Assembly: GCA_013697785.1 (NCBI GenBank) | Contig: JACCWE010000059.1 | Location: forward strand, 1 to 58,734 | DNA from: Gemmatimonadaceae bacterium | GTDB lineage: Bacteria > Gemmatimonadota > Gemmatimonadetes > Gemmatimonadales > Gemmatimonadaceae | DNA length: 58,734 bases | Reading direction: 5' to 3' | Part shown: one piece after another, positions 42,796 to 58,734 of the stretch | Position numbering within the stretch: the stretch's first letter is position 1 | Layout: each line of letters opens with the position of its first letter | The notes under the pieces: generated by a model | The model's database searches: none | The model's input: only the letters and a program-made list of their open reading frames with translations | What the model was told of the DNA's origin: nothing | Translations under genes and position numbers: made by a program

Positions 42796-42821
42796 CACCA
42801 TAGAGTTCACGCGAGGTTCCA

Positions 42822-43397: not shown

Positions 43398-43413
43398 ACG
43401 CTTGAGGTGATGC

Positions 43414-43557
43414 ATGCCGTCCAACTGGTTCACCCGCGACTTGATGATCGCGGCGCGAACATTCGCACGTCAACGGGCTCTCGCTTTCGCGGCTTTGGCG
43501 GACATCACGCTGGGCGTCGGCTGCACCCCCCGACGGCGCACAATCAATAGTCCATGA
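43414..43557 (+). pseudogene. Remnant of an ADOP (MacB/FtsX-like) permease N-terminus
   Basis: A 47-codon frame reads NWFTRDLMIAARTFARQRA then LAFAALADITLGVGC before running into PRRRTINSP and a stop. This is the first amphipathic/membrane segment of ADOP permeases (compare FRFAWRAIRRSPGFSLTVVL and LALGIGATATIFS in the intact gene at 44862-47549). The remaining 800 or so residues are missing, so it is a deletion remnant. Confidence 0.6.
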
Positions 43558-43570
43558 GGAGGTCTAATCG

Positions 43571-44605
43571 ATGCTGACGATCCCGCTTCAGGTGACGCTG
43601 ATCGCGCTACTCCGCGTCCTCTTCACAACCCCCAACGCCGTATGCTCTGCGCCAGTAGGCGGACGTCCGGTCCCGGCAGACTTCGTCGGCGACAGAGTAT
43701 TCGTTCGATGGGCTGCACCCGGGAACCAATCGCTCCGGCTCTACACCGATACTGGTGGCGGGCTGCTATCGCTATTCCCCAAAGCTGTCCAACGCCTCTC
43801 GTTACCGCTCGACACCCTGACCTGGACGAATGGTGCGGACCACGGAGACTATATGATGGCGCACGTTCCCAGCGCCCTCAACGAAGCGCTCGTGCCGCCC
43901 GTTCCAAGTGCTCTTTCGATCGGATTCAACATGAAGTCGGAGGACTCCACGACGGTGCTGCTCGCCGTGGAGTCGGAATCACCACCAGATGATGAGTTTG
44001 GCTACGAATGGGATGGCCGACTCGGGGCGGGTTGGTTCGCCGATCGGGTGTGGACGATAGACTATCCCAACAGACGGTTCTACTTCGACGGCACGAAGAC
44101 CGTAGCTCCGACCGACCCAGCCTGTTGGGTGCCGCTCGGATTCAAGACCGACTCAACAGGCCACCGGACGAATAGCTTTCCGCGGATCACAGCTCGGATC
44201 GACGGAGAAAACATCCAATTCCTCGTGGATACGGGAGCGCGAATAGAACTGACAGACAACGCGTGGCGGATCGTCGGCTCGAACGAACCTCGGCACCGCG
44301 CCACGAGCTTTATTACGAGGGAGCGTTTCGAGCAATGGCACAAGAAGCATTCGGAATGGATCATCGTGCCCAACGCTGAGAAGACGGTTGGCGCAGCAAT
44401 GATACGCGTCCCGACGATTGAAGTCGGTGGACGGCGGCTCGGTCCAGTGTGGTTCACCGAACGCCCTGATGGGAATTTCCGCGACTTCATGTCCCAGTAC
44501 ATGGACAAGCCGATCGAAGGTGCCCTTGGCGGGTCGGCATGGCGCTACGTCACACTTGTCCTTGACTACCCGGGGGCCAAGGCGGCTCTTCTCACGTCAC
44601 CGTAA
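43571..44605 (+). CDS. Secreted retropepsin/pepsin-like aspartic protease homologue
   Basis: 344 residues: a signal peptide (about 1-26), then two lobes each carrying a DTG catalytic motif, YTDTGGG (D59-G62 region) and FLVDTGAR (D220-G222). A single chain with two DTG motifs resembles bilobal pepsins or fused retropepsin-like domains. A strong Shine-Dalgarno GAGGAGG precedes the ATG at 43571. Between the lobes, GAGWFADRVWTIDYPNRRFYF is typical of bacterial aspartyl protease families. Composition is well below the chromosome on the left. Confidence 0.7.
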   Translation: MLTIPLQVTLIALLRVLFTTPNAVCSAPVGGRPVPADFVGDRVFVRWAAPGNQSLRLYTDTGGGLLSLFPKAVQRLSLPLDTLTWTNGADHGDYMMAHVPSALNEALVPPVPSALSIGFNMKSEDSTTVLLAVESESPPDDEFGYEWDGRLGAGWFADRVWTIDYPNRRFYFDGTKTVAPTDPACWVPLGFKTDSTGHRTNSFPRITARIDGENIQFLVDTGARIELTDNAWRIVGSNEPRHRATSFITRERFEQWHKKHSEWIIVPNAEKTVGAAMIRVPTIEVGGRRLGPVWFTERPDGNFRDFMSQYMDKPIEGALGGSAWRYVTLVLDYPGAKAALLTSP

Positions 44606-44635
44606 GGGTTTATGAGATATCCTTCGTATCTTCAC
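44603..44635. repeat. Repeat R2 (pairs with R1 at 41931)
   Basis: TAAGGGTTTATGAGATATCC followed by TTCGTATCTTCAC, overlapping the stop of the aspartic protease gene. Same orientation as R1, 2.67 kb away. The 226 bp from here to the ADOP permease hold no credible gene. Confidence 0.45.
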
Positions 44636-44861
44636 TCCACTCCGATCTTGGATGCCCGAAACCCAACCGCGTTTCCGCTCTCAGGTTCTCGGGCTGAAGG
44701 TATCACGTTTCTGCGGAACTCAAAGCACGCTTCGGTTTCGACCTCACCTCAGCGAAACCACTCCGACCTTCACCCCCACCCCCTAGATGCACGTGGGTGT
44801 TTCGCGCAACTATGATCGCGAGCAGTAGACTCACTGCTCGTTGCCGTTCCGAGAGAAGTAC

Positions 44862-47549
44862 CTAGTCGGAAGCGAGCGCTATCGCCGGATCCACGCGGCC
44901 CGCGCGACGAGCGGGGAAATAGCACGCGACAAACCCTACGGCGAGGAGCAGAATCGACGAGGTCAAGAACACCAGCGGATCGGTGGGCGAAGTGTCGAAC
45001 AACAGATGTTCGACGAGTCGAACCAGGGCGAGAGCTCCCGCGATTCCAAGTGCACATCCCACAAGCGCCGGGGCCATCGTCCGCACCAGGACCGCCCGAA
45101 CGATCGTACGCGGTGTCGCACCCAGTGCCAATCGCAAACCTAGTTCCCGCGTCCCTCGCGCAACGGTGTAGCTTGTCACACCGAAGATGCCGATTGCCGC
45201 GAGAAGGATCGCGCAAGAGCCGAATGCTCCAACAATACCGATGACGTACCGGCGTGGCGCAAGTGCAGTCGAGAGCGAGTTTGCGACGGGTACGAATCCC
45301 AAGCCCTCGCGCGGATCGCCGACGACGAACGCCGGTTCGACTTCGCCCAACGCGCGTTGAAGCGAGGCAGCTATCACTGGGCTCGCCGAGTGCACGCGGA
45401 CAACAAGCGATAGCCAAGGCCACGGCTCCGCGGATAGCGGCACGTACACTGCCGGATCGAGGTCAGTGTCTACACCATACTGCCGCACGTCGCCGACCAC
45501 TCCAATTACGGTGGAAGGAATTGGCTGGCCAAATCCCGGACGTCCTTGTGATGAACGAAAAATCGTAATCGGCTTGCCGACTGCGTCCGCGCCAGGCCAG
45601 TATTTCCGTGCGACAGTCTCGCTGATAACTACAGTATTGGTAGGCGAGCGCATCTCATCCGGAGAAAACCATCTGCCCGCTTTCAACGGAATCCGCATTG
45701 CGCGCAGGTAGTCCTCCGTCGCTGTGACGTAGGTCGCGATGTCCTGGCTCGATGGAACTCTATCGGGAAGCTCGATATTGGTGGCCACTCCTGCTCGACC
45801 GAGCGGAAAGAAGTTGACGGCAGCTGCGTCAGTAACTCCCGGTACTGCGCGAAGGCGCTCCACGATGCGCAGATACAACGAAAGCGCATCCTGCTCAGCA
45901 GCGTACTTGGGCTTCGGAGGAAAAATCGTCCGCGACAACACATCGCGTGAATCGAAGCCGAGCTTCACGTTCTCCAGCCGTTGGTAGCTATGAATCAGCA
46001 AACCGGTTCCAACTACCATAATGATCGCGAGCGCAAACTGAACGCACGTTAGCAATGATCTCGCTCGACTCTGTTTCAACGAAGTCCCAGTGTCGGAGCG
46101 GGAGCCAAGCAGTTCTCTGTTTGCGCTTCCACGCAGTCCCGCCGCGCGTACGGCCGGAAGCACGGTAAAGACTATCGCCGTGAACGCCGTTACGGCCATC
46201 GCGACAAGTAATGAGCGCGCATCTATAGTCATCTCAGAGGCGCGCGGAAGATCGAAAGGCGCGGTGGCTCGGAGCCATTTGACGGCACCAATCGATGCCA
46301 GCACCCCTATCGTTCCTCCTACCAGGCACAGCGTAAGCATTTCTACGAGCACCTGCCGCATGACTTGCAGCCTGCTGGCTCCGAGGGAAACACGAATCGC
46401 CATCTCACGACCACGTAGTGCACCGCGAACTGCGGAAAGATTCGCGAGATTGACGCACGCGATGAGCAACATGAGCACGACAGCTGCACCAAGTGCCCAA
46501 AGCGCGGCCCGTACGCCACCCACAAGGTTTTCCCCGAGAGAATCGACATCGACACCAATCCACTGCCCTTCTTCTCGGGGGTAGTCCTGTGATATTCGGC
46601 GTTGCGTTGCTGAAAGGAGTCGCGCCGCTTGTGCAGTGCTGACTACAGGAAGCAGTCGACCGATGATGCGGCTGTCGGTATGGAAGTCGCGACTCTTGAG
46701 CGCGGGATCCCTGTCGAGAATCTGTCCGAGTGGGCGCCAGAGCTGCGCGAAATCGGGAATTGAGAAGGTGGACGGCATTACGCCGATGATCGTTGCTCTC
46801 CCGCTATCGACCGTCACTACTCGTCCAATGACGTGAGGATCGGATCCGAACATGCTTGCCCAAAGTGAATGAGAGAGCACGATGACATCTGTTCCCGACG
46901 GCAATTCTTCTTCAGCGGCAAACGTTCGTCCGAGCTCGGGCCTTGTTCCAATCAACTTGAAAAACCCCAATGATACGTATCCGGCTGCAGCCGTCTTTGC
47001 ACCGTCACGAGTCTCGATTTTTATCAGATCTCCTCGGACATACGCCATTCCCGTGAGCCCCGACGGCGACCGCGCCCAATCCTGAAACGTGGGCAGCGAA
47101 GGCATCCTCCAGTTGCCCTCGCTTCCGTGTTCAAAGAGTTCCACCAACCGGCCCGCATCGGGATACGCCAAGGGCCGCAACAATACGTGATCGATTACGC
47201 TGAAAATGGTGGCCGTCGCGCCGATGCCCAGTGCGAGCGTAAGCACTACGGTGAGAGAGAACCCCGGGCTCCTTCTTATTGCACGCCAGGCAAATCGAAA
47301 CTCACGAATGAGCGTGTCGACTGCGCCGAAGCCCAGCGCGTCCCAGCTCGCCTCCGCAATGCGCGTACGATTGCCAAGTCGCTGCGCGCTAGCGTCGCTC
47401 GCCTCCGCGTGGGATAACCCGGTAGCGCGAAAATCTCTCGCCAGAAGCTCACTGTGGAATGCAAGCTCCTGCTCGATCTCCCGCGCACGATGCGCACGAC
47501 TCATTCGCGCGATCACGCGTCGCGCCAGAGTGTAGAATCGCTCGCTCAT
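44862..47549 (-). CDS. ADOP-family ABC-type permease (MacB_PCD/FtsX, two repeats)
   Basis: 895 residues. N-terminal ADOP helical region (REIEQELAFHSELLARDF), the first membrane helix with LTLALGIGATATIFSVIDHVLL, a periplasmic MacB-type core domain, FtsX helices, then a duplicated second half ending in LRLALGATPRTIVRAVLVRT and a C-terminal membrane pair (ILLLAVGFVACYFPARRAGRVDPAIALASD). ADOPs lack their own ATPase and presumably work with an unlinked MacB-like ATPase in efflux or envelope transport. The start is 10 bp downstream of the PadR stop, so they form an operon. Confidence 0.9.
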   Translation of the reverse strand: MSERFYTLARRVIARMSRAHRAREIEQELAFHSELLARDFRATGLSHAEASDASAQRLGNRTRIAEASWDALGFGAVDTLIREFRFAWRAIRRSPGFSLTVVLTLALGIGATATIFSVIDHVLLRPLAYPDAGRLVELFEHGSEGNWRMPSLPTFQDWARSPSGLTGMAYVRGDLIKIETRDGAKTAAAGYVSLGFFKLIGTRPELGRTFAAEEELPSGTDVIVLSHSLWASMFGSDPHVIGRVVTVDSGRATIIGVMPSTFSIPDFAQLWRPLGQILDRDPALKSRDFHTDSRIIGRLLPVVSTAQAARLLSATQRRISQDYPREEGQWIGVDVDSLGENLVGGVRAALWALGAAVVLMLLIACVNLANLSAVRGALRGREMAIRVSLGASRLQVMRQVLVEMLTLCLVGGTIGVLASIGAVKWLRATAPFDLPRASEMTIDARSLLVAMAVTAFTAIVFTVLPAVRAAGLRGSANRELLGSRSDTGTSLKQSRARSLLTCVQFALAIIMVVGTGLLIHSYQRLENVKLGFDSRDVLSRTIFPPKPKYAAEQDALSLYLRIVERLRAVPGVTDAAAVNFFPLGRAGVATNIELPDRVPSSQDIATYVTATEDYLRAMRIPLKAGRWFSPDEMRSPTNTVVISETVARKYWPGADAVGKPITIFRSSQGRPGFGQPIPSTVIGVVGDVRQYGVDTDLDPAVYVPLSAEPWPWLSLVVRVHSASPVIAASLQRALGEVEPAFVVGDPREGLGFVPVANSLSTALAPRRYVIGIVGAFGSCAILLAAIGIFGVTSYTVARGTRELGLRLALGATPRTIVRAVLVRTMAPALVGCALGIAGALALVRLVEHLLFDTSPTDPLVFLTSSILLLAVGFVACYFPARRAGRVDPAIALASD

Positions 47550-47559
47550 CGGCGGGCGC

Positions 47560-47898
47560 TCACGGCTCGCTGTTCATGACGAGCGCGATCGCATCCGCGA
47601 GCCGTCCGAACGTGCTTTGCTCGATGCCGAGCTGCTTGCGTCCCGCGGCTGTCAACGTATAGTATCGCGCCCTACGCTTCGTCGGAGTAAGTTTCCACTC
47701 GGCGCGAACCAACCCCTTGAGCTCCATGCGCTGCAATGCGGGGTAGAGCGATCCCTCCTCGACCTGGAGCACGTCATTTGAGAGCTGGCGAATGTGCGCA
47801 GCGATCCCGTATCCGTGAAGTGCGCCAAGGGATAGGGTCTTAAGCACTAACATCTTTAGCGTACCGGGAAGTAGCTCGTCCTTCGAATCTTTGCCCAT
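47560..47898 (-). CDS. PadR-family transcriptional regulator
   Basis: 112 residues from the ATG at 47898: a winged helix (GTLKMLVLKTLSLGALHGYGIA, EGSLYPALQRMELKGLV, KRRARYYTLTAAGRKQL) plus a short dimerisation helix. PadR-ADOP pairs are a stereotyped arrangement in Acidobacteriota and Gemmatimonadota. It likely represses its own operon through the repeats directly upstream of its start codon. Confidence 0.92.
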   Translation of the reverse strand: MGKDSKDELLPGTLKMLVLKTLSLGALHGYGIAAHIRQLSNDVLQVEEGSLYPALQRMELKGLVRAEWKLTPTKRRARYYTLTAAGRKQLGIEQSTFGRLADAIALVMNSEP

Positions 47899-47930
47899 AC
47901 ATAGATCACCTATGCGTAGATAACCTATGG
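47899..47930 (-). promoter_or_regulatory. Tandem operator-like repeats upstream of padR
   Basis: Two 13-bp direct repeats, TAGATCACCTATG (47902-47914) and TAGATAACCTATG (47917-47929), 12/13 identical and 2 bp apart (15-bp period), directly upstream of the PadR start codon at 47898. AT-rich and placed over the expected promoter: a likely PadR autoregulatory site. Confidence 0.6.
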
Positions 47931-48286
47931 TAAATCGAGGCACGTCCGGTTGTCAAGTGTTTACCATTTGTAATACGGAATCACTCAGCCGAATCGAGTG
48001 CCGATACAGAAGGTGAAGGACCAGAGGCGCCGCGTCATTCGGAGATCGGCTGAACAGTGTGGTCTTCTGCATTCAAGCTGTGGATTTCTCGAAGTTGTTC
48101 GCTGTCGCACTTACCGTTTTCGTTCGCGCTGCAGTTGCTCCCGCCTTCCGGCCTATCGCGAAGTGCGAATGGCCTCGCGACGGAAAACTCTCTGATTGCG
48201 GCAACATCTCTTCCGCGAAAGAATTCAGGCCATTCGTCCCAGATGTACATGCGGCCACGCTATCGGCGAGCGTGGCCGCTTTGACA
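47931..48286. other. Intergenic region between padR and the Cas1 gene
   Basis: About 356 bp without a convincing gene; short frames here lack coding character. Holds the start-side flank of the padR operon and, at its right end, a strong hairpin (48251-48279). If the casposon-like element has its own terminal repeat on this side it should lie here, but I could not find a matching inverted sequence in 55039-55233. Confidence 0.5.
48251..48279. terminator. Perfect 11-bp hairpin downstream of the Cas1 gene
   Basis: GCGGCCACGCT (48251-48261), a 7-nt loop, AGCGTGGCCGC (48269-48279). It begins 7 bp past the Cas1 stop. On the plus strand it is followed by TTTGACATCATTT; on the Cas1 strand there is no T-run, so it may stop incoming transcription or act as a bidirectional or structural element. 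Confidence 0.5.
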
Positions 48287-49849
48287 TCATTTCTTCGCGA
48301 TCGATCGCGATCCGTCCCGCGATAACGCCCTGATTGCGTCCCAGTGCATCGGATGGGGGATGTACTGGCCGCGCAAGATTCGTCCGCAGTACGACCTACA
48401 CAATCCCGTCGCGGCTCGAACATCTGGCGCGCGCAGGTTCGCGAGGGTTGGGAAAATCTCCGTCGCGAAGACGTGAGCTGCTGGTATGGCTGGATGCTTC
48501 GCTTCCCACTCACGAATAGCCGCTGCTCGTTGACTACGCGCATCCCCCATCAACGCGCGAGTCTCCTCTGACGGCCCAGCGCCGCTGTCTTCACGCTGCC
48601 GACGGCGAAGCGCCGTGCGGGCATATGCCGACGCCATCGCCGGCAAGGTGGCGATGCACGCCGCGCAATAGACTCCGGTTTTCTTCTGAAATGCAGCTCC
48701 GCACCTGCGACATCGACGACCACGGGTGGAGCCGCTCGTTTTCGACAGCGGCGGCTTCTGTCGGACCGAGCTGAGAATCGGCGGAAGTCGAACGTGTCGA
48801 ACTTCGGCCTCATGCGCGGAATCGGAAGACACATTACCCGCCGCACCCGCGCGCTCGAATCGTCGAGCTACTCGGCTCGCGATCGGGTGAAGCAGCTTGG
48901 CCCACTGACTTGCGGTTTCTGAGAGCCGGTGCGCAATAGGCGGCATGAGACGGCACACGCCTTGATTTGTTTCGAAGAAATCATCGCTCGAGAACGTATG
49001 CTCCCGCGCAAGTCGAAGCACAAATGCATCCACGTAGGGTCTTACGGGTTCAAGCACATCGTACGCAAGTGAATCCCTTCCGGCGCGATCCGCGTGCAGG
49101 ATGCCGAGGCCCGGGTCGCAACCCGCCGCGAGAACCGCAATACGTGCCTCAGCGCCTGCGATGCCATAGCAATAGTTGAGGATCGCGTTGAGCGGAGTTA
49201 CTCCTTTGCGAGCGCTGTCGGTCAGCGGAGACCGGCGTTCCCCGAAGGTGCGCCAATGTTTCGGAATGCGTCCGACGTGCTTCGAAGGGAAGCGCAGCTC
49301 GACCGACTCCCATGCGTGCCAGTAGGCGTAGGCCGCGCGTGCCTCGACGTAACGCACCCGGTCCAATGTTCGTGCCTGCTGCACATGCGGCAACGCATCG
49401 CGAAGCGCCTTGGCGATCGGAGCGGAGTTCGGGATAGCATCGAGCGCATCGGCCTGTCCCGCGATCTTGGCTGCGATCAACTCGCGACTCAATTCCAGCG
49501 CGACGCCTGATGTGAGTGCGAGCGCTTGGGCGCGCCGGAGTCGCGCGTCATCGAGTCGGCACGTAGCTGTGACAGCGACTAAGTGACCATCATGGTCGAG
49601 CTGCACGACGTGCGCTCCGATTGCTTCGAGCCAGCTCAGGGCATCGAGCGACACCGTTCCCGACGTCGCATGAATAATCAAACGCTTGAGCTGCGGCGCG
49701 ACGCGTGAGAAGCGCCCGTGCCGGCGAAAGCGGCCTGCGCCGTCCGTGATCGTGAGGTGGCCTCTCTCCACGGCGATGCGAAGTCCGTATCCACTCAGCG
49801 CGAGGACGCCGCGCCGAGGCCGCATCTCACTCGAGGGGGCGATCGGCAT
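48287..49849 (-). CDS. cas1: Cas1-family integrase/endonuclease with C-terminal zinc ribbon and HTH (casposase-like)
   Basis: 520 residues. Residues about 13-330 have the Cas1 fold: N-terminal beta domain (GVLALSGYGLRIAVERGHLTI, VSLDALSWLEAIGAHVVQLD) and helical catalytic domain with EARAAYAYW (E169), CDPGLGILH (H252) and SLAYDVLEPVRPYVD (D264, E267), so the metal site looks intact. A long extension follows: zinc ribbon C380-x2-C383-x11-C395-x2-C398 and an HTH near 470-495. CRISPR Cas1 proteins are about 300-340 residues and lack this. With no CRISPR array or cas2 nearby but PolB and HNH genes adjacent, it is best read as a casposon-type integrase. Start 49849 overlaps the MerR-like stop; ATG 49825 is an alternative. 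Confidence 0.85.
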   Translation of the reverse strand: MPIAPSSEMRPRRGVLALSGYGLRIAVERGHLTITDGAGRFRRHGRFSRVAPQLKRLIIHATSGTVSLDALSWLEAIGAHVVQLDHDGHLVAVTATCRLDDARLRRAQALALTSGVALELSRELIAAKIAGQADALDAIPNSAPIAKALRDALPHVQQARTLDRVRYVEARAAYAYWHAWESVELRFPSKHVGRIPKHWRTFGERRSPLTDSARKGVTPLNAILNYCYGIAGAEARIAVLAAGCDPGLGILHADRAGRDSLAYDVLEPVRPYVDAFVLRLAREHTFSSDDFFETNQGVCRLMPPIAHRLSETASQWAKLLHPIASRVARRFERAGAAGNVSSDSAHEAEVRHVRLPPILSSVRQKPPLSKTSGSTRGRRCRRCGAAFQKKTGVYCAACIATLPAMASAYARTALRRRQREDSGAGPSEETRALMGDARSQRAAAIREWEAKHPAIPAAHVFATEIFPTLANLRAPDVRAATGLCRSYCGRILRGQYIPHPMHWDAIRALSRDGSRSIAKK

Positions 49850-50756
49850 TGGGCGTGATGGGGGTGAAAGGATTGAGTTCGGCGTGGAGCGCCGTCAGTG
49901 CGAGGCGGATCTGCGGATTCTCTCGATAACGCAACCAATACAGAAAGAGAATTGGCCAAGGCCACGAAGAATCGCGTTCCGCTTCGAGGGCTATGGCGGG
50001 TCCGAGTCCGAGGGACATGTCTAGAGCTCGACGCAACACCTCGGCGACCTGCGGCAGCTCATCGCGAGCGAGGAGCAGAGTTGCCTCATCCGCCTTGTGA
50101 AACGCGGCGGCGACAGGTCCAGGGTCAACTAGTTGGCTAAACGTCGCGAGCGCACCTGCGTGTATAAGTCCCGCCGCTTCCAGCTGCGGAAAGGCGCGTG
50201 ACAGTATCTCTCGATCGTTCGGCTCTAGGTCTGTGTAGGCGCCAGTCCCAAGCCTCTCCGCGAGATCAAGAGAATTTGTAATCGGAATTCGCCCGAGGAG
50301 TTCACGTAGGCGACGAAACCCGGGTGACCCTCCCCGTGCGCGCGCCTTTCGTGTGAGCCTAGCCCGATACCGCTCCGCTGTCTCGTCGGCCTCCTCCGAT
50401 GGATCGGACGCCGTGAGAACTTCTTCCTTCTCACCGATGAGGCGCGCAACCTCCACGCCCAGCTGGTCCCGTAGCGACTGCATCGAAACCGGGAACGCCT
50501 TCACGAAGAGTCTCCAGCGCACTACGTCGAGATCACGCGTATGCGTGAGGATAGTGCCGATCATGAGCGCCTGATCGAGTGCGATCGATGGATAGATCGA
50601 CTCTGTTCCGAGCCGCCCGTGGTGGCGGGATTTGGGCGATGGCATCACGCCCGCTTTCCGCCATCGATGGAGCTTTTCCGCAGTGAGGTCGATGCCTTGA
50701 GCAGCAGCCTCCTCGAGCAACTCGGCCATCGAAAAGGTCCCTGTAGGATCGCGCAT
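49827..50756 (-). CDS. MerR-like HTH protein of the casposon-like element
   Basis: 309 residues from the ATG at 50756. N-terminal MerR-type helix-turn-helix (FSMAELLEEAAAQGIDLTAE then KLHRWRKAGVMPSP, about 8-38), then a helical region of unknown fold. It is immediately upstream of, and overlaps, the Cas1 gene by 23 nt, so the two are co-translated. It may regulate the divergent promoter region or help Cas1 recognise ends. A longer form from a TTG at 50792 is less likely. Confidence 0.7.
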   Translation of the reverse strand: MRDPTGTFSMAELLEEAAAQGIDLTAEKLHRWRKAGVMPSPKSRHHGRLGTESIYPSIALDQALMIGTILTHTRDLDVVRWRLFVKAFPVSMQSLRDQLGVEVARLIGEKEEVLTASDPSEEADETAERYRARLTRKARARGGSPGFRRLRELLGRIPITNSLDLAERLGTGAYTDLEPNDREILSRAFPQLEAAGLIHAGALATFSQLVDPGPVAAAFHKADEATLLLARDELPQVAEVLRRALDMSLGLGPAIALEAERDSSWPWPILFLYWLRYRENPQIRLALTALHAELNPFTPITPNADRPLE

Positions 50757-50888
50757 CCTACACACTCTATAGCTGGGCGCGATCAAGAGCAAGTGTTTCC
50801 ATCAAGCATCGTATAATATCAATGCACCCGCTTGGCGAGCCTTTTCGTTACAGCTGGGCGCGAGAATGCCAACTATTTTGGAGGGCCT
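50757..50888. promoter_or_regulatory. Divergent promoter region with paired 12-bp repeats
   Basis: Separates the Cas1/MerR arm from the PolB arm. AGCTGGGCGCGA occurs twice in the same orientation (50771-50782 and 50851-50862), exactly 80 bp apart. A consensus TATAAT sits at 50812-50817 for rightward transcription, and TATAGA next to the first repeat suits leftward transcription. GGAGG precedes the rightward start codon. The repeats are candidate operators for one of the element's HTH proteins. Confidence 0.55.
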
Positions 50889-51140
50889 ATGTCAGAACCG
50901 AAATATCTCACCGCCGCAGATGTCGCCCGGATCCTGCGGGTCACCCCCGGGGCTGTGCGCATGATGCACAAGCGCGGGGCACTCACTGTGGCCGAACAGA
51001 CGGTCGGGGGAATCCACCTCTTCTTGAGGGCGGAGATTGATCGGGTGGCGCTGCTCCGAGAGAAGCCTCGAGCGAGGATCGACCATCGGAAGCCAAGGCT
51101 AGAAAGTGCGCCCGCACGCCGCGCGGGCGGTGGGCGGTAA
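50889..51140 (+). CDS. Small excisionase/MerR-like HTH protein
   Basis: 83 residues: an HTH_17-type domain (YLTAADVARILRVTPGAVRM, then MHKRGALTVAEQTVGGIHLFL) with a basic C-terminal tail. Start ATG at 50889, preceded by TTGGAGGGCC. First gene of the rightward arm; its fold matches excisionases and MerR-type winged HTHs, so it could be a repressor or a recombination directionality-like factor. Confidence 0.75.
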   Translation: MSEPKYLTAADVARILRVTPGAVRMMHKRGALTVAEQTVGGIHLFLRAEIDRVALLREKPRARIDHRKPRLESAPARRAGGGR

Positions 51141-51143
51141 TGC

Positions 51144-51692
51144 GTGCCTCGGAAGCGCCGCGCCAGTTCGAAAGGCGCGAAGAAGCCAACGAAGCGCGGA
51201 TCGCCGCACCGATCATCGGCTGCGAGTCTCCGCGCGGAGAAAGCCAAACAAGACAGCCTGGAAGTGCTAAACATTTTGCGCGCGCAAGGACTCGTGTTTT
51301 CGCAAGTGGTGCGCGAAGTCGGCACTACCTCGCGTACGGTGCGCCGGCACGTCGGCGAAGCACTGAAAACCGATACTCGTGGTCGGGTGGTCGCCATGCC
51401 ACATGACCGCATTCCGCGCACGATGCGCTTCATCACGCCACGCGGGTTGATTGCGGTGACCGTTCACGACTCGCGAATCGCGAGTGAGATCGGACGCCAC
51501 ATGTCCGCTGTCAATCGCTTCCTCGAGACGGGAGACGAGGGCCCGCTGCAGCCATTCGTTGACGAGGGAATCCGTGCGGGGCAGCTGTTCCATCCCTATG
51601 TCACCGATCCGGACACGCTTGTGCGCCTCGCCCATGCGGGCGAGGTGTCCTTCGAAGATCTCTACGCTCTCACGACAGGAGAACACAAATGA
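51144..51692 (+). CDS. HTH-containing DNA-binding protein of the element
   Basis: 182 residues from a GTG 3 nt after the preceding stop. A very basic N-terminus (RKRRASSKGAKKPTKRG), a resolvase-like HTH (FSQVVREVGTTSRTVRRHVG, about 52-71), then a mixed alpha/beta domain (ITPRGLIAVTVHDSRIASEI, MSAVNRFLETGD) and a helical end. No recognised enzyme motif. Its stop overlaps the HNH start (ATGA), so it is co-translated with the nuclease. Confidence 0.65.
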   Translation: MPRKRRASSKGAKKPTKRGSPHRSSAASLRAEKAKQDSLEVLNILRAQGLVFSQVVREVGTTSRTVRRHVGEALKTDTRGRVVAMPHDRIPRTMRFITPRGLIAVTVHDSRIASEIGRHMSAVNRFLETGDEGPLQPFVDEGIRAGQLFHPYVTDPDTLVRLAHAGEVSFEDLYALTTGEHK

Positions 51693-52126
51693 CAAACACC
51701 TCAGGAATTCCTGACCTCGATCCGATCGGCATTGAAATGCGGCGCCTCCGGCGCGAAGAACAGTTCGGCGCGTGTGCGAGCTGCGCGCTCTGCGGGATGG
51801 CCAACATCGACGTGCTCACCCCTGCGCCTCGGAGCTTCTTGGAATCGCACCACGCCGTCGGGCGCGCCAATGACAACGGCTTGACGGTGCCGCTGTGTAG
51901 GAACTGTCACGCCGAGGTGACGGAGGGTTATCGCAACGCGGGTGTTCCGCTCAATCTGCCGCCCACGTTCCTGCACAAGCTCGTTGCCGTGCTGCGCGCG
52001 CTCGGAGCATTTCTCGCGATCCTCGGACAGCGGCTGGCGACGTGGGCAGAGGCGCTCATTCGCCTCCTGGTCCGACTTGACGCGACCGTTCCATCGTGGC
52101 GGAGCTGGGAGGAAGCGAAGCCATGA
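51689..52126 (+). CDS. HNH endonuclease
   Basis: 145 residues. Zinc knuckle C32-x2-C35 and C70-x2-C73 around the HNH core: H54-H55 in LESHHAVGRANDNGL, N61/N63, and H74 in LCRNCHAEV. The last 60 residues are hydrophobic/amphipathic (FLHKLVAVLRALGAFLAILG). HNH nucleases are a regular component of casposons beside Cas1 and PolB. It overlaps both neighbours by 4 nt (ATGA at both ends), so the arm is one translationally coupled unit. Confidence 0.82.
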   Translation: MTNTSGIPDLDPIGIEMRRLRREEQFGACASCALCGMANIDVLTPAPRSFLESHHAVGRANDNGLTVPLCRNCHAEVTEGYRNAGVPLNLPPTFLHKLVAVLRALGAFLAILGQRLATWAEALIRLLVRLDATVPSWRSWEEAKP

Positions 52127-55038
52127 AACCGGCACGCGTTCCCATCGCGCTCCGCGCGTACACAGTTCGGACGGAGGCCGAAGAGGCCACGCCCAGTGTA
52201 CCGAGTCCCTCAGAGAGGAATCGAGGCCGTTGGCAACCCACATGGCCCAAATACGTCCTTGTCTTCGACACAGAAACGACGCCTGAGCAATCGCAGCGAT
52301 TGATGTTCGGGAGCTATCGCGTTGGGAGGTGGAACTCAACCGGAACTCTGGAGCTGATCCAAGAAGGACTGTTTCACGCCGACGATCTTGGAGAATGGTA
52401 TCCCGAGGGGCTCGCCGTCCTACGGGAGTACGCAGCTCGCGAATCCATTCCGCTCAGGTCGCGTCGCAAGTTTATGGACACGACGTTCTACCAGGTCGCA
52501 GCTCAGATGCGAGCTCTGGTCGTGGGATTCAATCTTCCGTTCGACCTCTCGCGTCTGGCCGTTGACGCGGGTGAGGCACGGGGTTGGTACTACGGAGGAT
52601 TCTCATTCACCCTCTGGGACTACCGGGACAAATCCACCGAGAAATACCGGCCGAATCTGTATCGGCCAAGCCTCCGTATCAAGCATGCACACAACAAGGC
52701 GGCCTTTATCGGATTCGCGAATCCGATGCGATCGGACGACAAAACAACCAAGATCGGTCACGGAAATTTTCTCGATCTTCGGACTATTGCCTACGCGCTG
52801 AGCGCCGAAGGGCACAGCCTCGCATCGGCCTGCGTGGCGTTCGGTGTCAGGCATGGAAAACTCGAGATGGAAGAACACGGACGCATTACGTGTGAATACA
52901 TCGACTACAATCGCCGCGATGTACTTGCCTCTCAGGAGTTATTGGAACGTGTGAGAGTCGAGTTTGATAAACTCAGCCTGCCTCTGCGACCCACCAAAGC
53001 ATTTTCGCCGGCCTCCATTGCGAAAGCGACACTTCGCGCTATGGGAATCAAGCCACCGATAACCAAAGCACCATCGTTTACGCCCAGTCAGATGGGCGAC
53101 GCGATGACCGCATTCTACGGAGGTCGAGCCGAGTGTCGGGTGCGACGAACCCCGGTATCTGTCGTGACGGTCGATTTTCGGTCGATGTATCCGACGGTCG
53201 ACTGCCTCATGGGGGTGTCGCGTCTCTTGAGTGCCGAGACGATCCGCTGGGAGGACTACGCGGAGCAGTTTCGCCTGCTGCTGCAACGCGCGTCGATGGA
53301 CGCGGCCTTCACGCGTGAACTCTGGCCGCAGCTCATGGGATTCGTAGAGATCGAGCCAGACGATGATATACTCCCGGTACGTGCGAAGTATTCCGAGACG
53401 AGCGACGGACTCAACATCGGCGTCAACCATCTGACTTCGTCGGTGCCATTTGTGTACGCGGCACCCGACGTGTACGCGTCGGCATTGCTTACGGGGAAAC
53501 CCGCACGGGTGAGACGCGCGTGGCGAATGGTTGGCGAAGGGCAACAAGCGGGGATGAAGCCCATCAACCTGGGCGGAACGATTGAGATAGATCCGTACAC
53601 GGATGATCTCTTTCGCTTGCTGATTGAAGAGCGCGTTCGCGTCAAGACCTCCGCCGAGCTGCCACGGGAGGAGATCGCCAGGGTCGAACTGCTACTCAAG
53701 ATCATAGCGAATAGCGGTGGCTACGGCATCTTCGCCGAGTTGAACCGAGAGGATCTCCCGAGCGACAAGAGTGCGAGCATCACTGTCTTTTCAAACGGTG
53801 GGTCGTTCGAGCAAATGACCGAAGCGCCGGAGGACGCGGGCGAATTTTGCTTCGCGCCGATCGCAGCTATGATCGCGGCAGCTGCGCGACTCATGCTTGC
53901 AATCTTGGAACGTTGCGTCACCGACCTCGGTGGCACATACGCGTTCTGTGACACGGACTCGATGGCCATCGTTGCAAGCGAGACGGGAGGTCTCCTCGCA
54001 TGCGAGGGTGGGCCACTCAGGACGAGCGATGGCGCTCCTGCAATCCAAGCGCTGTCCTGGCGCGAGGTCCAAGCTATCCAATCCCGCTTCGATGCACTCA
54101 GTCCGTACGACCTCGCTGTCATTCCGTCGATCTTGAACGTTGAGAAGGTGAACTTCGCGAAAGGGGGCGGACAGCGAGAGATCATGGCATACGTCGTCTC
54201 CGCCAAACGCTACGTCCTTTATCACTTCGATGATGACGGCTCGCTCGTTCTCGACAAGTGTTCGAAACACGGACTTGGCCATCTCCTAAGTCCACTGCCG
54301 ACAGACAGCACGGAGAGATGGCCCGAAGTGCTCTGGCGCCTGATTCTTTGCGAGGCCTTGGGAATTCCACACGAGGCGCCGGAGTGGCTGAAGCTCCCCG
54401 CCATCACGAGAGTCTCCGTCAGATCACCCTCGTACTTCCGTGGATTCCTACGACGGCACGCTGACATGCCATACGCCGAGCGCATCAAACCATTTGGTTT
54501 TTTGATAGCGTGCCAAGTCGCACGCTTTGGCCATCCAGAGGGTGCGAATCCTAAAGCCTTTCATTTGCTATCGCCGTACTCGGTTACTCCGTCTGACTGG
54601 GCTTCGCAGCTCTGGACGGATACCTATTCGGGCAACGAGTACGCTGTCACCACTGCGCTCAGCTATCAGCCAGGAGTCGTGCGCGTTCGCTCGATTGCGG
54701 ACATCAAAGCGGAATTTCTTGCGCACGGCGAGGTAAAAAGCGCTACGGCTGATGGTGAACCGGCGGGCGCGAGTTCACGAGGACTGCTGCAACGCCGACA
54801 CGTGACGCCGTCGGAAATCCGGCTCATTGGAAAGGAGTCGAACAGCTTCGAGTTGGTTGAGGCTGGACTGATCGGTGATTGGCGCGAGATCCTGAGCAGC
54901 TACACAGACAACGAGAACCGACCTTCGGAGGAGCAACTGATGACGGAACCTGCAGTGGTGATCGCGCGAAGGTGGAATGTCAGCGTGCGGACGGTGCGCG
55001 CGTGGAGACGGCGTGTGCGCGAATCGCGCTACCAATAG
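52123..55038 (+). CDS. polB: Family-B DNA polymerase with proofreading exonuclease and C-terminal HTH
   Basis: 971 residues from the ATG at 52123 (GGGAGG upstream, ATGA overlap with HNH). Exonuclease motifs FDTET (D49, E51), FNLPFD (N137, D141) and YNRRD (Y262, D266) are intact. Polymerase motif A VDFRSMYPT (D351), motif B KIIANSGGYG (K526, N530, Y534; one residue longer than the usual KxxxNSxYG), motif C FCDTDS (D610, D612), and KRY in SAKRYVLY. The C-terminal 30 residues form an HTH (VVIARRWNVSVRTVRAWRRR). Expected to replicate the element, as in self-synthesising transposons. Not a chromosomal Pol II: context, size and tail differ. Confidence 0.88.
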   Translation: MKPARVPIALRAYTVRTEAEEATPSVPSPSERNRGRWQPTWPKYVLVFDTETTPEQSQRLMFGSYRVGRWNSTGTLELIQEGLFHADDLGEWYPEGLAVLREYAARESIPLRSRRKFMDTTFYQVAAQMRALVVGFNLPFDLSRLAVDAGEARGWYYGGFSFTLWDYRDKSTEKYRPNLYRPSLRIKHAHNKAAFIGFANPMRSDDKTTKIGHGNFLDLRTIAYALSAEGHSLASACVAFGVRHGKLEMEEHGRITCEYIDYNRRDVLASQELLERVRVEFDKLSLPLRPTKAFSPASIAKATLRAMGIKPPITKAPSFTPSQMGDAMTAFYGGRAECRVRRTPVSVVTVDFRSMYPTVDCLMGVSRLLSAETIRWEDYAEQFRLLLQRASMDAAFTRELWPQLMGFVEIEPDDDILPVRAKYSETSDGLNIGVNHLTSSVPFVYAAPDVYASALLTGKPARVRRAWRMVGEGQQAGMKPINLGGTIEIDPYTDDLFRLLIEERVRVKTSAELPREEIARVELLLKIIANSGGYGIFAELNREDLPSDKSASITVFSNGGSFEQMTEAPEDAGEFCFAPIAAMIAAAARLMLAILERCVTDLGGTYAFCDTDSMAIVASETGGLLACEGGPLRTSDGAPAIQALSWREVQAIQSRFDALSPYDLAVIPSILNVEKVNFAKGGGQREIMAYVVSAKRYVLYHFDDDGSLVLDKCSKHGLGHLLSPLPTDSTERWPEVLWRLILCEALGIPHEAPEWLKLPAITRVSVRSPSYFRGFLRRHADMPYAERIKPFGFLIACQVARFGHPEGANPKAFHLLSPYSVTPSDWASQLWTDTYSGNEYAVTTALSYQPGVVRVRSIADIKAEFLAHGEVKSATADGEPAGASSRGLLQRRHVTPSEIRLIGKESNSFELVEAGLIGDWREILSSYTDNENRPSEEQLMTEPAVVIARRWNVSVRTVRAWRRRVRESRYQ

Positions 55039-55107
55039 TCAGTACGGTAATCTTCGAACTGCTCGCACCGCTCGACTTGCAGTTGTTTTGTAAGACTACG
55101 ATAACGC

Positions 55108-55126
55108 GGGCGGCGATGCGCCGCCC
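55108..55126. terminator. GC-rich hairpin downstream of the polymerase gene
   Basis: GGGCGGCG, loop ATG, CGCCGCCC: a perfect 8-bp stem 70 bp past the PolB stop. No T-run follows on the plus strand. It may end the rightward transcript or be part of the element's end. The interval 55039-55233 otherwise holds no gene. Confidence 0.45.
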
Positions 55127-55228
55127 ACTAAGACTCCGACGAGATGCGGATCGAGTTCACTTCGATATGTGCCTTCAGGCGGCAACAATGAGGCGACTAC
55201 CGCCCCGTTCCGCACGAAGGGCACCGAG

Positions 55229-55235
55229 TAGCGTT
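55229..55235 (-). other. attC left-core-like sequence after the DUF3800 gene
   Basis: Reading on the minus strand, GGCTAAC overlaps the DUF3800 stop codon exactly as at 42698. A stem GTGCC(C)TTC/GAAGGCAC with GGCGG/CCGCC inside follows, but no convincing right core within about 100 bp, so only a partial site is supported. Confidence 0.35.
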
Positions 55236-55956
55236 AGCCCACGGAAAGCCAACTATCGTTCGTCGGCCAATTCTTGTATTTAGTCGGGAAAAGTAGACGC
55301 CTCTTCCCTCGTGCGTGGGCGGATATTTCTCGGCGAAAATAAGTCGTGCAATCGCCAGCAACCATGGCGAGTGTGTACACAAAAATATCCGCGAGTTGAA
55401 GTAGGCGACTATGATCAGAGCGCGTGTGATGAATAGTGTCCACAATTCGGTTAATTGCACGGCCGAATATGAAATCAGTACCACGTGCCTTGTATTCGCT
55501 TAAGCTTGCGACGTTCGTACCTGCGATTTCTTTGTCATCGTCTGCGATTAACAGCGCGAGCGATTGTTCATGTTTCATGTAGTCTTGTACTTTCTCGATC
55601 AAGAACATGAACGCGATGTTCTCATGCTTTGCCGCAACCATCTTAGATGGATCAAGGCGTATCACTATCCGACCGAGGCCTTCTGTCTCATCTATCGCGT
55701 CAAGTAACTCCTTGTAGAGCGCGATACGCTCTGCGATAGCACGACCCTTGTACGCTCCCTTTCCATGAACGATCTCGTTCCCGTGAAACTCGTTCTTGGG
55801 ATTGAGAACTGAAGTCCCAAAGTACTTCGTTGCAATTGTGGACAGGGTTTCATCGATGGACTGCACCGAGCGCTCCGGAAATGCGAGCGCGCACAGCCAG
55901 TGAAAAGGCTGCGTGGGTGGTGCATGCTTGACTTCGTCTATGTAGACGAGATGCAC
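55234..55956 (-). CDS. DUF3800-domain protein
   Basis: 240 residues from a GTG at 55956. It opens with LVYIDEV (the YxDE signature of DUF3800, an RNase H-like fold), then GRIVIRLDPSKM, LALLIADDDKEIA with further acids that would complete a metal site, and RLLQLADIFVYTLA. DUF3800 proteins are widespread on mobile elements and in defence islands and may be nucleases. It stands alone between the polymerase and the DinB-like gene, with 200 bp of non-coding sequence upstream (55957-56156), and has low GC. Confidence 0.78.
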   Translation of the reverse strand: MHLVYIDEVKHAPPTQPFHWLCALAFPERSVQSIDETLSTIATKYFGTSVLNPKNEFHGNEIVHGKGAYKGRAIAERIALYKELLDAIDETEGLGRIVIRLDPSKMVAAKHENIAFMFLIEKVQDYMKHEQSLALLIADDDKEIAGTNVASLSEYKARGTDFIFGRAINRIVDTIHHTRSDHSRLLQLADIFVYTLAMVAGDCTTYFRREISAHARGKRRLLFPTKYKNWPTNDSWLSVG

Positions 55957-56156
55957 GTCTCAAAGCATTTGGCAGTACATAGCTACTTTTGCCCAATTGC
56001 GCTTCGTTCTCTGTGAAGCCCGGCCCGGTACTTCACGCTCCGTTTGACGAACAACGCAAGACTGATTGATCAAAGGTAGATATTTCCGGTGAGGTACGGG
56101 GTACTGCTGTGATGTTAGCCGGTAGTATCGCAGTTGCGTACCCGAACTCCTGGAAC

Positions 56157-56738
56157 TCAATGATCTGGTCGTCGCAGAGCAGAGGGCGGTACCAACCCCA
56201 TGAACCGCATGTAACTCGCGACCTGACTGTAGTGCTCAGCGAGATCTGTCGTGAAGAATAGGAGCGCGCGCACGCGTGTAACTGAGTCGCTTGACGAACT
56301 ACCCAGCGCGACCGTCTCCGTGAGCTGGGCGTCGTTCACCTGTGCGAATGCTCGGGCGCAGAACTGCAGCGACGCGCGGAGTCGGGCTACGAGCGTGTCC
56401 TTCGGCCAAGCAGACTTGATCGTGTCGGATATTGAATCCTTGGGTCCGATTGGTGCGCGCAGCCCACCGATGCCGGCGCACAGCGCGTAGTTAGCGTGCT
56501 CGAGGTGCTGGGCGATGTATCCGACGGTCTGCTGGACTGGTGTAGGCCGAAAGTCGTATTTGCGAGCTGGGATCGAATCGAAGGCCGCGAGCAATAGTCC
56601 TCCGTAGTGTCCGCCGAAATCCCGAAAAGACCCGAGGACCGTGGTGTTCGGCGGCGGAGAGGGCACTCCTTGCTGGGCGGCTAGCGTGATCGGCACGATC
56701 ACGATTGTGATGCCAAGTTTCCAGAATCGCTTCATCAT
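56157..56738 (-). CDS. Secreted DinB-superfamily protein
   Basis: 193 residues: a signal peptide (GITIVIVPITLAAQ) and a four-helix DinB/YfiT-type bundle with putative metal-ligand histidines in GYIAQHLEHANYALC and DLAEHYSQVASYMR. Members include bacillithiol and mycothiol transferases (not the polymerase DinB); activity here unknown. Cassette-like: a single gene followed on the minus strand by GGCTAAC (near 56112-56118). A second Met directly after the first could be the start. Confidence 0.75.
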   Translation of the reverse strand: MMKRFWKLGITIVIVPITLAAQQGVPSPPPNTTVLGSFRDFGGHYGGLLLAAFDSIPARKYDFRPTPVQQTVGYIAQHLEHANYALCAGIGGLRAPIGPKDSISDTIKSAWPKDTLVARLRASLQFCARAFAQVNDAQLTETVALGSSSSDSVTRVRALLFFTTDLAEHYSQVASYMRFMGLVPPSALRRPDH

Positions 56739-56800
56739 CTCAGAGGTAGGGTGGCCGACGCGGCTCCGTAAACTGCATCGGGTTGTTAGGTCACAGGCGT

Positions 56801-57370
56801 CTATTTGCGCACCACAACAAAACTGGTATCGGCAGCCAATCCGAGTCGATGCAGTTTGACGCTATCTTGCAGTACTCTCACAAAGTCCAGATATACTCGA
56901 TCATCAATGTCGAGAAGCATTCTCGCCGCAACGCCGGTCTGTCTATCCAAAAATCGCAACTGTGCGCCGCCCTCAGCATCAGCGTCCAAGTTGATGCGCT
57001 CTATGTTGCACGGAGTGCTCGTGCATCGCGGCGCATCCAATCCGAGCCCCATGTTGCCGTGAGCGTCGAGACCCACTCCAAACCGCTCCCGTCCGAGAGA
57101 GTCGCGTATAACCATTCCCGTCGCAGGTGAAACTCGATCGAAATTATCAAGAACGGGTGCGCCCAAGATCACTCTGGCGCGCCCACTCGCGTCCTCGATG
57201 ATGAGTTGCCGAGTTCGCACTACGCTGGACGCCTTCGACGGAAACGAAAATGCCAGTATTCCGAATACTAGAATCGCTCCTACCCATGCGGTGGCAAACA
57301 CATACACACGCTGAAGCCGCCGCTCGGGCTGGCCTATGCGATCGGTGAGTGAGACGTCAAGAGCGACCAT
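56801..57370 (-). CDS. Membrane-anchored beta-rich protein, paralogue of 42822-43397
   Basis: 189 residues with the same plan as its paralogue: N-terminal ERRLQRVYVF, a membrane helix (about 26-46), then an extracytoplasmic domain with RQLIIEDASGRARVILGAPV and GLGLDAPRCTSTPC. Only scattered substitutions distinguish the two after residue 50. Followed on the minus strand by ACCTAAC, a perfect attC left core, but the rest of the site is not clear. Encoded in the opposite orientation to its copy. Confidence 0.72.
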   Translation of the reverse strand: MVALDVSLTDRIGQPERRLQRVYVFATAWVGAILVFGILAFSFPSKASSVVRTRQLIIEDASGRARVILGAPVLDNFDRVSPATGMVIRDSLGRERFGVGLDAHGNMGLGLDAPRCTSTPCNIERINLDADAEGGAQLRFLDRQTGVAARMLLDIDDRVYLDFVRVLQDSVKLHRLGLAADTSFVVVRK

Positions 57371-57392
57371 TGGTACCTCGCGAGGATGCTAT

Positions 57393-57493
57393 TGTGAACG
57401 GACGCCAGATTTCAGCTGCGAAGGCGCACACGTGATCTATGCCGCCGGTCCGGGGCGGTGCGCGCCTTCCTCGGCTGCAGCGATCCGTTGGGC
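57393..57493 (-). other. attC: attC-like site between hydrolase and paralogue genes
   Basis: On the minus strand: left core GCCCAAC (57487-57493; matches RYYYAAC), stem GAAGGCG(C)GCAC paired with GTGCGCCTTC, then GCAGCTGAA as in the 42698-42795 site, and a degenerate right core GTTCACA (57393-57399). It lies between the hydrolase stop and the paralogue leader, the same relative place as the left-arm attC. Confidence 0.5.
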
Positions 57494-57502
57494 AACAGCG
57501 CA

Positions 57503-58525
57503 TCAGCGGTCGGTCGCGCGCCGCAGGAATGCATCGACGGCCGGGAGCACGAACTCCGGTCGTTCGGCATGGGCGAAATGCCCGCCGGCGGCGACCCGCA
57601 AGCGGGTGACCCGCGACAGCACCGCCGCCCATTCGTCAACCGCCGCCGTGGGGGTCGGGTCACGCAGACCCTCCACGAGCAGGACCGGTCCGGTGATCGC
57701 GGCCGCACTGGAACGGAGGTCCCCGCCGGCTAGAGACGCGACGGCCGCCGGCACGGTGTACGCTTGCACCGCACGGTACGCCTCGGCGGACATAGCGCAC
57801 GGATTACCCCGCACGCGGGCGCGCACCGAGTCTGCGCCACCCCACAAATGCATCAGGATCTGCATGCGCGCATGACAGCTCGCCAGTGGCGCAGCTTGCC
57901 AGCGTGCCGGGGCGCTCGCCGTGGCGAACGCCTTGAGTTCCTGCGGTGTGGCACGCGCAACGAGGGCTTCGTTGAACTGCGCAAAGTACGGCACCAACCG
58001 CGGAACAATCGGCTCAAGGAGGACGACCGCCCCGACACCTCTCGGATGCGCCGCCGCGTAGCGAACGACGAGCCCCGCTCCCCACGAGTGGCCGATCAGC
58101 GCAGGGCGCGCGAGCCGGAAGTGCGCAATCACCGCACCGAGATCGGCGACGTGCTCGGCAACGGTGAGGCGCGTCGAGTCCGTCAAAAGAGTCGAGCGAC
58201 CCGTCCCGCGCTGGTCGTAGAAGATCAGGACCCGGTCGCGCGCGAGTGGCGCAAGGTCGGCCGCGAGGCTTTCCAGGCCGAATCCTGGGCCACCGTGCAC
58301 CACAACCGCGGTGTCCGGCCCCTCACCGACCGCGCGATAGAACAACTCGACGCCGCGGCCAGCGGGCACGAACCCTTCATGCACGGCGACGGCGCGGTCC
58401 TCGGACGTGCGAGGCACGGCACTGCCATGAGGTGTGCAGGCAACGTTGAGACTCGCCCCTGACAAGCCGACGAACATCAACGTGCCACACAGACGTCGAC
58501 GATGGATCCGGACACGATCGCTCAT
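57503..58525 (-). CDS. Exported alpha/beta hydrolase (prolyl iminopeptidase-like, S33)
   Basis: 340 residues from the ATG at 58525. Lipobox-like LNVAC (Cys30) suggests a lipoprotein. Hydrolase signatures: HGGPG (77-81, oxyanion, typical of proline iminopeptidases), DQRGTGRS (104-111), nucleophile elbow GHSWG (S147), VEGLRDPT (acid) and GGHFAH (His). GC is higher than in neighbouring cassettes, suggesting a separate origin. First gene of the right arm, pointing inward from the 50-bp repeat. Confidence 0.82.
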   Translation of the reverse strand: MSDRVRIHRRRLCGTLMFVGLSGASLNVACTPHGSAVPRTSEDRAVAVHEGFVPAGRGVELFYRAVGEGPDTAVVVHGGPGFGLESLAADLAPLARDRVLIFYDQRGTGRSTLLTDSTRLTVAEHVADLGAVIAHFRLARPALIGHSWGAGLVVRYAAAHPRGVGAVVLLEPIVPRLVPYFAQFNEALVARATPQELKAFATASAPARWQAAPLASCHARMQILMHLWGGADSVRARVRGNPCAMSAEAYRAVQAYTVPAAVASLAGGDLRSSAAAITGPVLLVEGLRDPTPTAAVDEWAAVLSRVTRLRVAAGGHFAHAERPEFVLPAVDAFLRRATDR

Positions 58526-58560
58526 GTGGTACAGTAATCCGTCTTTGACTGCCAACTTCC

Positions 58561-58610
58561 CATTCGCCTACACACGATACTAACTCCCAGTTCGTTAGCG
58601 CTGCAATATC
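58561..58610 (-). repeat. 50-bp inverted repeat, right copy
   Basis: Reverse complement begins GATATTGCAGCGC and contains GAGTTAGTATCGTGTG; 42/50 identical to 42187-42236. Its outer end is abutted exactly by the IS3-type terminus at 58611, so the original repeat may have been longer. Confidence 0.75.
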
Positions 58611-58734
58611 TGAACCGCCCCGGGTTTCTCGGAGACTCAGTTAGTTGAGTGTCCCAGCAGTTGCTGGTGCTGTTTCGAGTTGAGCAAACTGCGCCTCATA
58701 TGCTACTGGGGGAAGATAGCCGAGCGGTTCGAGC
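58611..58734 (-). mobile_element. IS3-family insertion sequence, one end (continues past the window)
   Basis: Starts with TGAACCGCCCCGGGTTTCTC, the terminal inverted repeat type of many IS3-family elements, followed by GGAGACTC and the 3' end of the transposase gene. The other end, and so the target duplication, lies outside the window. Confidence 0.8.
58641..58734 (-). CDS. IS3-family transposase (OrfB), C-terminal fragment
   Basis: The last 30 codons are visible: LEPLGYLPPVAYEAQFAQL and a short tail before TAA (58641-58643). The LGYLPPVAYEAQ stretch is the conserved end of the IS3 rve-type integrase domain (the usual form is LGYLSPAEYE). The gene runs on beyond the right edge; DDE residues are not in view. 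Confidence 0.75.
   Translation of the reverse strand, partial: LEPLGYLPPVAYEAQFAQLETAPATAGTLN

Follow-up and report, generated by a model that had tools for sequence, protein, structure and literature searches.

Does a cas1 gene that stands beside a DNA polymerase gene in a Gemmatimonadaceae bacterium belong to a CRISPR (clustered regularly interspaced short palindromic repeats) system or to a mobile element? The gene lies in a stretch of 58,734 nucleotides (contig JACCWE010000059.1, assembly GCA_013697785.1; hereafter the window), for which a preliminary description made from the letters alone had suggested a casposon-like element. We found that the locus is very probably, at about 0.95, a casposon, a DNA transposon that encodes Cas1. 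It has a solo Cas1 with intact catalytic residues, a family-B DNA polymerase (PolB), terminal inverted repeats (TIRs), a 14-bp target site duplication (TSD) with an empty site, and, among the genes tested, no other mover. The element type is known; the target gene is new, and so is the host phylum, Gemmatimonadota, an extension of host range that the preliminary description had foreseen. Positions are window coordinates; C112 and C13 are further contigs of the same genome, and L and G numbers denote loci and genomes of relatives.

The interval originally proposed, 48251-55126 (6.9 kb), turned out to be only the core of a 17-18 kb element. The element spans from 41935 to the end of the window and continues, through one insertion sequence (IS) of the IS3 family, to base 383 of C112; by arithmetic this amounts to ~16.9 kb of casposon, or ~18.2 kb once the IS is counted, ~2.5 times the earlier size. 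The window contains most of a casposon, with the right end on C112. A simple inverted-repeat search around the original interval found no TIR because the true ends are 6 kb leftward and on another contig. DNA searches of 47000-48280 and 55100-57500 in relatives for flanks gave scattered paralogues only, because both stretches are inside the element.

The left TIR occupies 41935-42245 (plus strand). Over its outer 84 bp, counted from 41934, where a G belongs to TIR and TSD alike, it matches the right end on C112 without a difference, and homology fades over ~310 bp. We compared the first 267 bp of the left end with C112, and left-end positions 252-312 from 41934 with the inner part of the right TIR at 58551-58610 (minus strand), directly left of the inserted IS; the two TIRs are near-identical, with the IS inside the right copy. 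The terminal end reads GGGTTATATGATATCC, and the left-end repeat at 41933, AGGGTTATATGATATCCC, is a variant of the TIR found by comparing the sister loci L043, L044 and L051. The whole 3.8-Mb genome has just two copies of an 18-bp end core, one at 41933 and one at C112:366-383; they are oppositely oriented and lie beside two halves of one gene. Directly outside the left end is the 14-bp TSD copy GCGAGGCCATTAAG (41921-41934), which is matched exactly by a second copy at C112:384-397. The TIRs, a TSD within the proposed 14-15 bp and an empty site, all named as checks in the preliminary description, were found.

The right end was recovered across a contig junction. The last 124 bases of the window (58611-58734, minus strand) and the first 123 bases of C112 (C112:1-123) are the two ends of one 1309-bp IS3-family element, both 100% identical to a full copy on C13. 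A 3-bp duplication, ATC, is present at both junctions, and the TIR homology is in register across the IS, the C112 part stopping where 58551-58610 begins. Given the IS ends, the ATC duplication and the in-register pairing, we concluded that insertion of the IS into the right TIR caused the break in the assembly.

The interrupted gene encodes an Eco57I/type IIG/DrmMI-like N6-DNA methylase. Its C-terminal 748 codons are outside the element at 39684-41930 (minus strand; PF07669, 5.6e-18; PADLOC DrmMI, 2e-30), where the frame is cut at 41930, and its N-terminal part is found at C112:394-1401 (minus strand). When the flanks were joined with a single copy of the TSD, they formed an open 1093-codon methylase frame reading AFESLMASRERKSSGAFYTP. 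Two genomes of the same genus, G001 and G002, carry the methylase uninterrupted at the exact site (KAFESLM and KSFESLM), with 81% and 79% identity, respectively. No Cas1 of any kind was found in four same-genus genomes; the module is absent from these genomes, contrary to what a fixture at one syntenic site in all relatives would predict. The methylase was present in 90 of the 119 relatives searched, with many of the best matches in open frames of ~1000-1100 codons; the element's target lies inside the coding region of this methylase gene, which is conserved in Gemmatimonadota. An SNF2-family helicase, scored as DrmD-like, adjoins the target methylase.

All six core genes are open reading frames and were found where the preliminary description had placed them, in two divergent arms. 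On the minus strand are the casposase gene, cas1 (48287-49849; 520 aa; Pfam PF01867, E = 1.5e-36), and a gene for a DNA-binding protein with a MerR-like N-terminus and an all-helical C-terminus (49827-50792, start codon approximate), which is also next to cas1 in L021, L043, L142, L143, L144, L146 and L149. On the plus strand are genes for a small MerR/excisionase-like helix-turn-helix (HTH) protein (50889-51140; 83 aa; HTH_17, 2.5e-4; PHROG excisionase family, 2.7e-5), a second HTH protein (51144-51692; 182 aa; kept in L021, L043, L045, L142, L144 and L146), a putative HNH-type nuclease (51689-52126; kept in L021, L043, L142 and L146) and PolB (52096-55038; 980 aa). Overlaps of 23 bp (HTH/cas1), 4 bp (HTH/HNH) and 31 bp (HNH/PolB) fit the translational coupling suggested for both arms.

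The residues put forward as the Cas1 catalytic set, E169, H252, D264 and E267, were unchanged across 9/9 aligned family members. Downstream of the Cas1 domain are a CxxC...CxxC zinc-ribbon-like segment and a conserved C-terminal HTH-like stretch ending in PHPxHW. PolB retains the exonuclease and polymerase motifs attributed to it, from DTE through NLPFD, YNRRD, DFRSMYP, K..NSG.YG and CDTDS (motif C, residues 618-622) to KRY, and has a C-terminal HTH (HTH_23 at residues 955-977). Its Pfam signal was faint (PF03175, E = 0.016) and its profile had no significant match in the PDB. Since its AlphaFold model was of low confidence (predicted local distance difference test, pLDDT, 50.8), we used the fold class alone; the top matches listed in a structure search were B-family polymerases (E = 7.5e-8). 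Weak matches in PHROGs and PADLOC, together with a C..C/HH/C..CH motif, suggest the HNH assignment. For the MerR-like protein (pLDDT 75.6), PDB matches included MerR proteins, none of them significant, and the all-helical C-terminal half, in which we sought the HEAT repeats characteristic of casposon family 2, had no significant PDB match. The PHPxHW stretch also occurs without a detected Cas1 domain in L053-L061, on contigs of Eremiobacterota, Terriglobia, Thermomicrobiales and Gemmatimonadetes, which may hold further casposon remnants or PolB/HTH proteins.

The same gene set was found at different loci in related genomes, as the preliminary description had proposed to look for. A genome-wide scan identified the module in two Gemmatimonadetes metagenome-assembled genomes (MAGs; L043 and L044) and also, with a deletion, in L051. 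As further Gemmatimonadota genomes and Actinomycetota genomes carry this gene set too, its composition is not due to chance. Cross-comparison of L043, L044 and L051 yielded the TIR GGGTTAAGAGAnAAGC...CTTCACCCCCC, with 14-bp TSDs in L044 (GCGATGGCGTTGAG) and L051 (CTCATGGCATCGCG), and the L044 flanks map contiguously, with a 14-15-bp overlap, onto uninterrupted L051 DNA. In the Actinomycetota elements at L142 (4690-18564) and L145 (751-14468), the TIRs begin with GGGATAGGAGATAGG and GGGAAGAGAGATAGG and the 15-bp TSDs are perfect, with TIR/TSD search scores of 36-37 vs 10-11 in shuffled controls; the divergent gene order is retained in L142 and L146. TIR/TSD pairs in L143, L144, L146, L147, L149, L150 and L151, mostly short contigs or locus stretches, were not clearly above shuffled controls.

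PolB and this Cas1 type occur together in three phyla, and PolB was found in 4/395 Gemmatimonadota genomes sampled. The view that casposons are known mainly from archaea and a few bacteria holds only in part: it undersells the bacteria, as this long-type Cas1 is present in 7/396 Actinomycetota genomes sampled, as well as in one Acidobacteriaceae MAG. We found no viral contigs with PolB and Cas1 alignments, and plasmids gave only partial, low-identity Cas1 matches, of which those listed were CRISPR Cas1. One Actinomycetes MAG (G404) has two different casposases of this family (L073 and L080).

Some relatives are damaged. At L051, 1010-7182 is an internally deleted copy in which the cas1 C-terminus is fused beside the polB C-terminus; this copy has both TIRs intact and carries a DNA methylase gene as cargo. 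A second TIR begins past its TSD at the same 14-bp target, and part of the methylase is missing beyond it; by its sequence, L051 appears to be a non-autonomous tandem casposon in which two elements landed on one target. In L043, the closest relative, cas1 is shortened from ~11260 and an IstB-like sequence follows; it was apparently cut by an IS21-type insertion.

With regard to target preference, the L051 element interrupts the homologous methylase gene at the very codons used in the window (FESLMAS), and L044 lies near the methylase 3' end, at LNAIAEPARGG. A tblastn search with the methylase found nothing in the flank of the L043 left end, which places that end outside this gene. L145 ends ~60 bp before a tRNA-Trp gene, and the Actinomycetota elements are at other sites. 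In total, an end was mapped for four Gemmatimonadota insertions; three of these are in one gene, two of them at the same codons. These are too few for proof of specificity, and coincidence in a 4-Mb genome would be unlikely. In five other Gemmatimonadota genomes, G220, G044, G011, G021 and G397, the target methylase gene lies in two pieces, on separate frames or contigs, and some of these genomes may hold further insertions. We tentatively suggest, as a possibility on the unlikely side, that this casposase lineage evolved to target a conserved coding stretch of a widespread, putatively anti-invader methylase gene, which would give it a reliable site and silence a host defence, while it carries abortive-infection-type genes of its own beside polB.

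A different account of the locus is that cas1 is a strayed or relict member of a CRISPR adaptation module, with PolB, HNH and HTH as chance neighbours. Every profile library recognises the protein as a true Cas1, and there are CRISPR systems elsewhere in the phylum, including ordinary type I-E CRISPR Cas1s, unrelated to the element, in four relatives (L013, L014, L015 and L017). In our tree, however, it formed one clade with the 14 other module Cas1s (15 in all; support 100/99), outside all 38 CRISPR Cas1s, type I-E among them, so that module Cas1 is, on phylogeny, firmly placed as non-CRISPR. As the preliminary description had stated, cas2 and an array are missing: using Pfam models, we found no Cas2 in the whole genome (control positive in 7/14 genomes) and no second Cas1, and no CRISPR-like array was present in the window or in the first 6 kb of C112; beyond these stretches, the absence of CRISPR rests on the genome searches for Cas1 and Cas2. 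PolB also accompanies this Cas1 across phyla, and TIRs and a TSD enclose the whole set. The TIRs, TSD and conserved gene set already refute the idea of a relict, to which we give practically no weight. We regard it as very improbable, too, that the core is a passenger and that mobility comes from a different recombinase, be it the transposase of the IS3-family copy at the right end or an integrase that escaped notice. The IS3-family element in the right TIR and the long element with its varied cargo speak for such a passenger. The IS, though, has its own ends and its 3-bp ATC duplication nested in the casposon TIR, and therefore arrived later; no integrase domain was found among the cargo genes tested with Pfam, and the nested IS3-family copy is the only other transposase. 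Furthermore, L044, L142 and L145 agree in TIR type and TSD length, and the genes they have in common are cas1 and polB. A further reading, that this is a genuine casposon that is now dead, its right TIR split by the IS, qualifies the casposon interpretation rather than opposing it. The IS and the damage in L051 and L043 favour it; against it, both TIRs are complete and free of mismatches over their outermost 84 bp, and the six core genes and both target halves are open, which suggests a recent insertion. We consider a dead element conceivable, if rather unlikely.

Several observations do weigh against identifying the element as a casposon. The right end is on a separate contig of a draft assembly, though the junction is supported three ways. 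PolB and HNH are so divergent that profile matches stay weak, and most of the cargo (permease, hydrolase, DinB) resembles ordinary chromosomal genes. The Methanosarcina mazei casposase, the sole published casposase in the tree, was placed beside the module clade with support of 65/6, which does not resolve the grouping, and descent from archaeal casposons is therefore not established by the tree alone. The tree weakly suggests kinship with archaeal casposases, for which gene content, ends and TSD length make the stronger case. Finally, we infer transposition from genes and anatomy.

Among published elements, gene content is closest to casposon families 2 and 3 (Krupovic et al. 2014, PMC4046053), which likewise have a solo Cas1, PolB, HNH and HTH proteins, TIRs and TSDs, the last with a published median of 15 bp. 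The gene set of these families is present here, including HNH (by weak matches), HTH proteins and an HTH at the Cas1 and PolB C-termini. A C-terminal HTH on both Cas1 and PolB is shared with family 2, and the zinc-binding domain and HTH fused to the Cas1 C-terminus are shared with the bacterial family-3 element AceAut-C1 (PMC4046053); our placement near the two families is provisional and by their published description. Unlike families 2 and 3, the elements described here have hosts in Gemmatimonadota, Acidobacteriota and further Actinomycetota, and the target is in the middle of a methylase gene. Of these host phyla, PMC4046053 names one actinobacterium only (Streptomyces albulus). None of the open papers that we searched, a set outside which the 2016 and 2017 casposon papers fall, joins casposons with Gemmatimonadetes or casposase with Gemmatimonadota.

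The M. mazei casposase (PDB 6OPM, PMC6977970) is matched by the Cas1 profile at 5e-30 and shares a 14-bp TSD and a similar end. The M. mazei end is written 5'-TATATCCC (PMC6977970); from the outer side, on the other strand, it begins GGGATATA, vs GGGTTATA in the window element. Tandem insertions on one target are reported for M. mazei and were observed here in L051. The M. mazei casposon was studied at the 3' end of a tRNA-Leu gene, whereas the target here is protein-coding. By its CDTDS motif C alone, we assign PolB to the PolB_CDTDS group (Kazlauskas et al. 2020, PMC7544198), which includes the polymerase of the Aciduliprofundum boonei casposon (PMC7544198). The Cas1-Cas2 adaptation module of CRISPR-Cas has a homologous integrase with the same catalytic residues; unlike it, the element is without Cas2, array and effector, and its Cas1 forms a separate clade.

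M. mazei Cas1 inserts casposon ends at a specific site with 14-bp TSDs and requires its HTH domain to do so (PMC6977970), and movement of this casposon in vivo has been reported (PMC10359463). By homology and anatomy, we infer which protein serves as integrase and what HNH, PolB and the HTH proteins do, as well as any present-day activity. The solo Cas1 would act as the integrase, bringing the two inverted-repeat ends together and joining the 3' ends of the element to the two target strands at positions 14 bp apart, and gap repair would then give the 14-bp duplication. The Cas1 C-terminal HTH and the small HTH proteins would probably recognise the ends and the target, and PolB, probably aided by the HNH nuclease, would copy the DNA of the element or complete it.

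Next to polB is a variable slot, which in the window holds a gene for a DUF3800 cargo protein (55234-55956, minus strand; PF12686, 9.2e-16; PADLOC candidate-defence model, 7.9e-6), in L021 DUF2971 (weak, 0.001) and in L043 a putative abortive-infection domain, putAbiC (4e-23). L145 carries as cargo an nSTAND nucleoside triphosphatase with an Mrr-like domain. Judged by predicted function, these cargo genes look defence-related. The left cargo (42266-47943) comprises 145-aa and 191-aa proteins, an aspartyl-protease-like protein, a MacB/FtsX permease and a PadR regulator, and the right cargo (56157-58555, minus strand) a DinB-like protein, a paralogue of the 191-aa protein and an alpha/beta hydrolase. 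A 0.63-kb inverted duplication (42765-43404 vs 56794-57425, 80% identity) flanks the core and encodes a 190-aa protein without a family assignment. A second TIR-like sequence, GGGTTTATGAGATATCCTTCGTATCTTCAC, oriented as a left end, is present at 44606-44640 and is possibly a relic of another element, or chance.

An imperfect palindrome at the cas1 stop codon (48242-48288) is kept in sister elements: a palindrome of ~50 bp is found 3' of cas1 in the window element, in L044 (~11485-11543) and in L051 (3762-3827), where it is ~0.94 kb from the cas1 remnant. It is followed by a short common stretch readable as [MV][YF]IW[DQ]. We ruled it out as an element end, as it lies in the interior of each of the three elements, with the true TIRs farther out; candidate roles are an origin, an operator or a gene-start remnant.

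Casposons are the proposed source of the machinery that integrates CRISPR spacers, and few bacterial examples are well delimited. The element described here has both ends, a TSD and an empty site, and is tied to a set found across Gemmatimonadota, Actinomycetota and Acidobacteriota. Because most of the mapped Gemmatimonadota insertions are in one gene, and two share their codons, target choice in this family can be tested with short, defined DNA.

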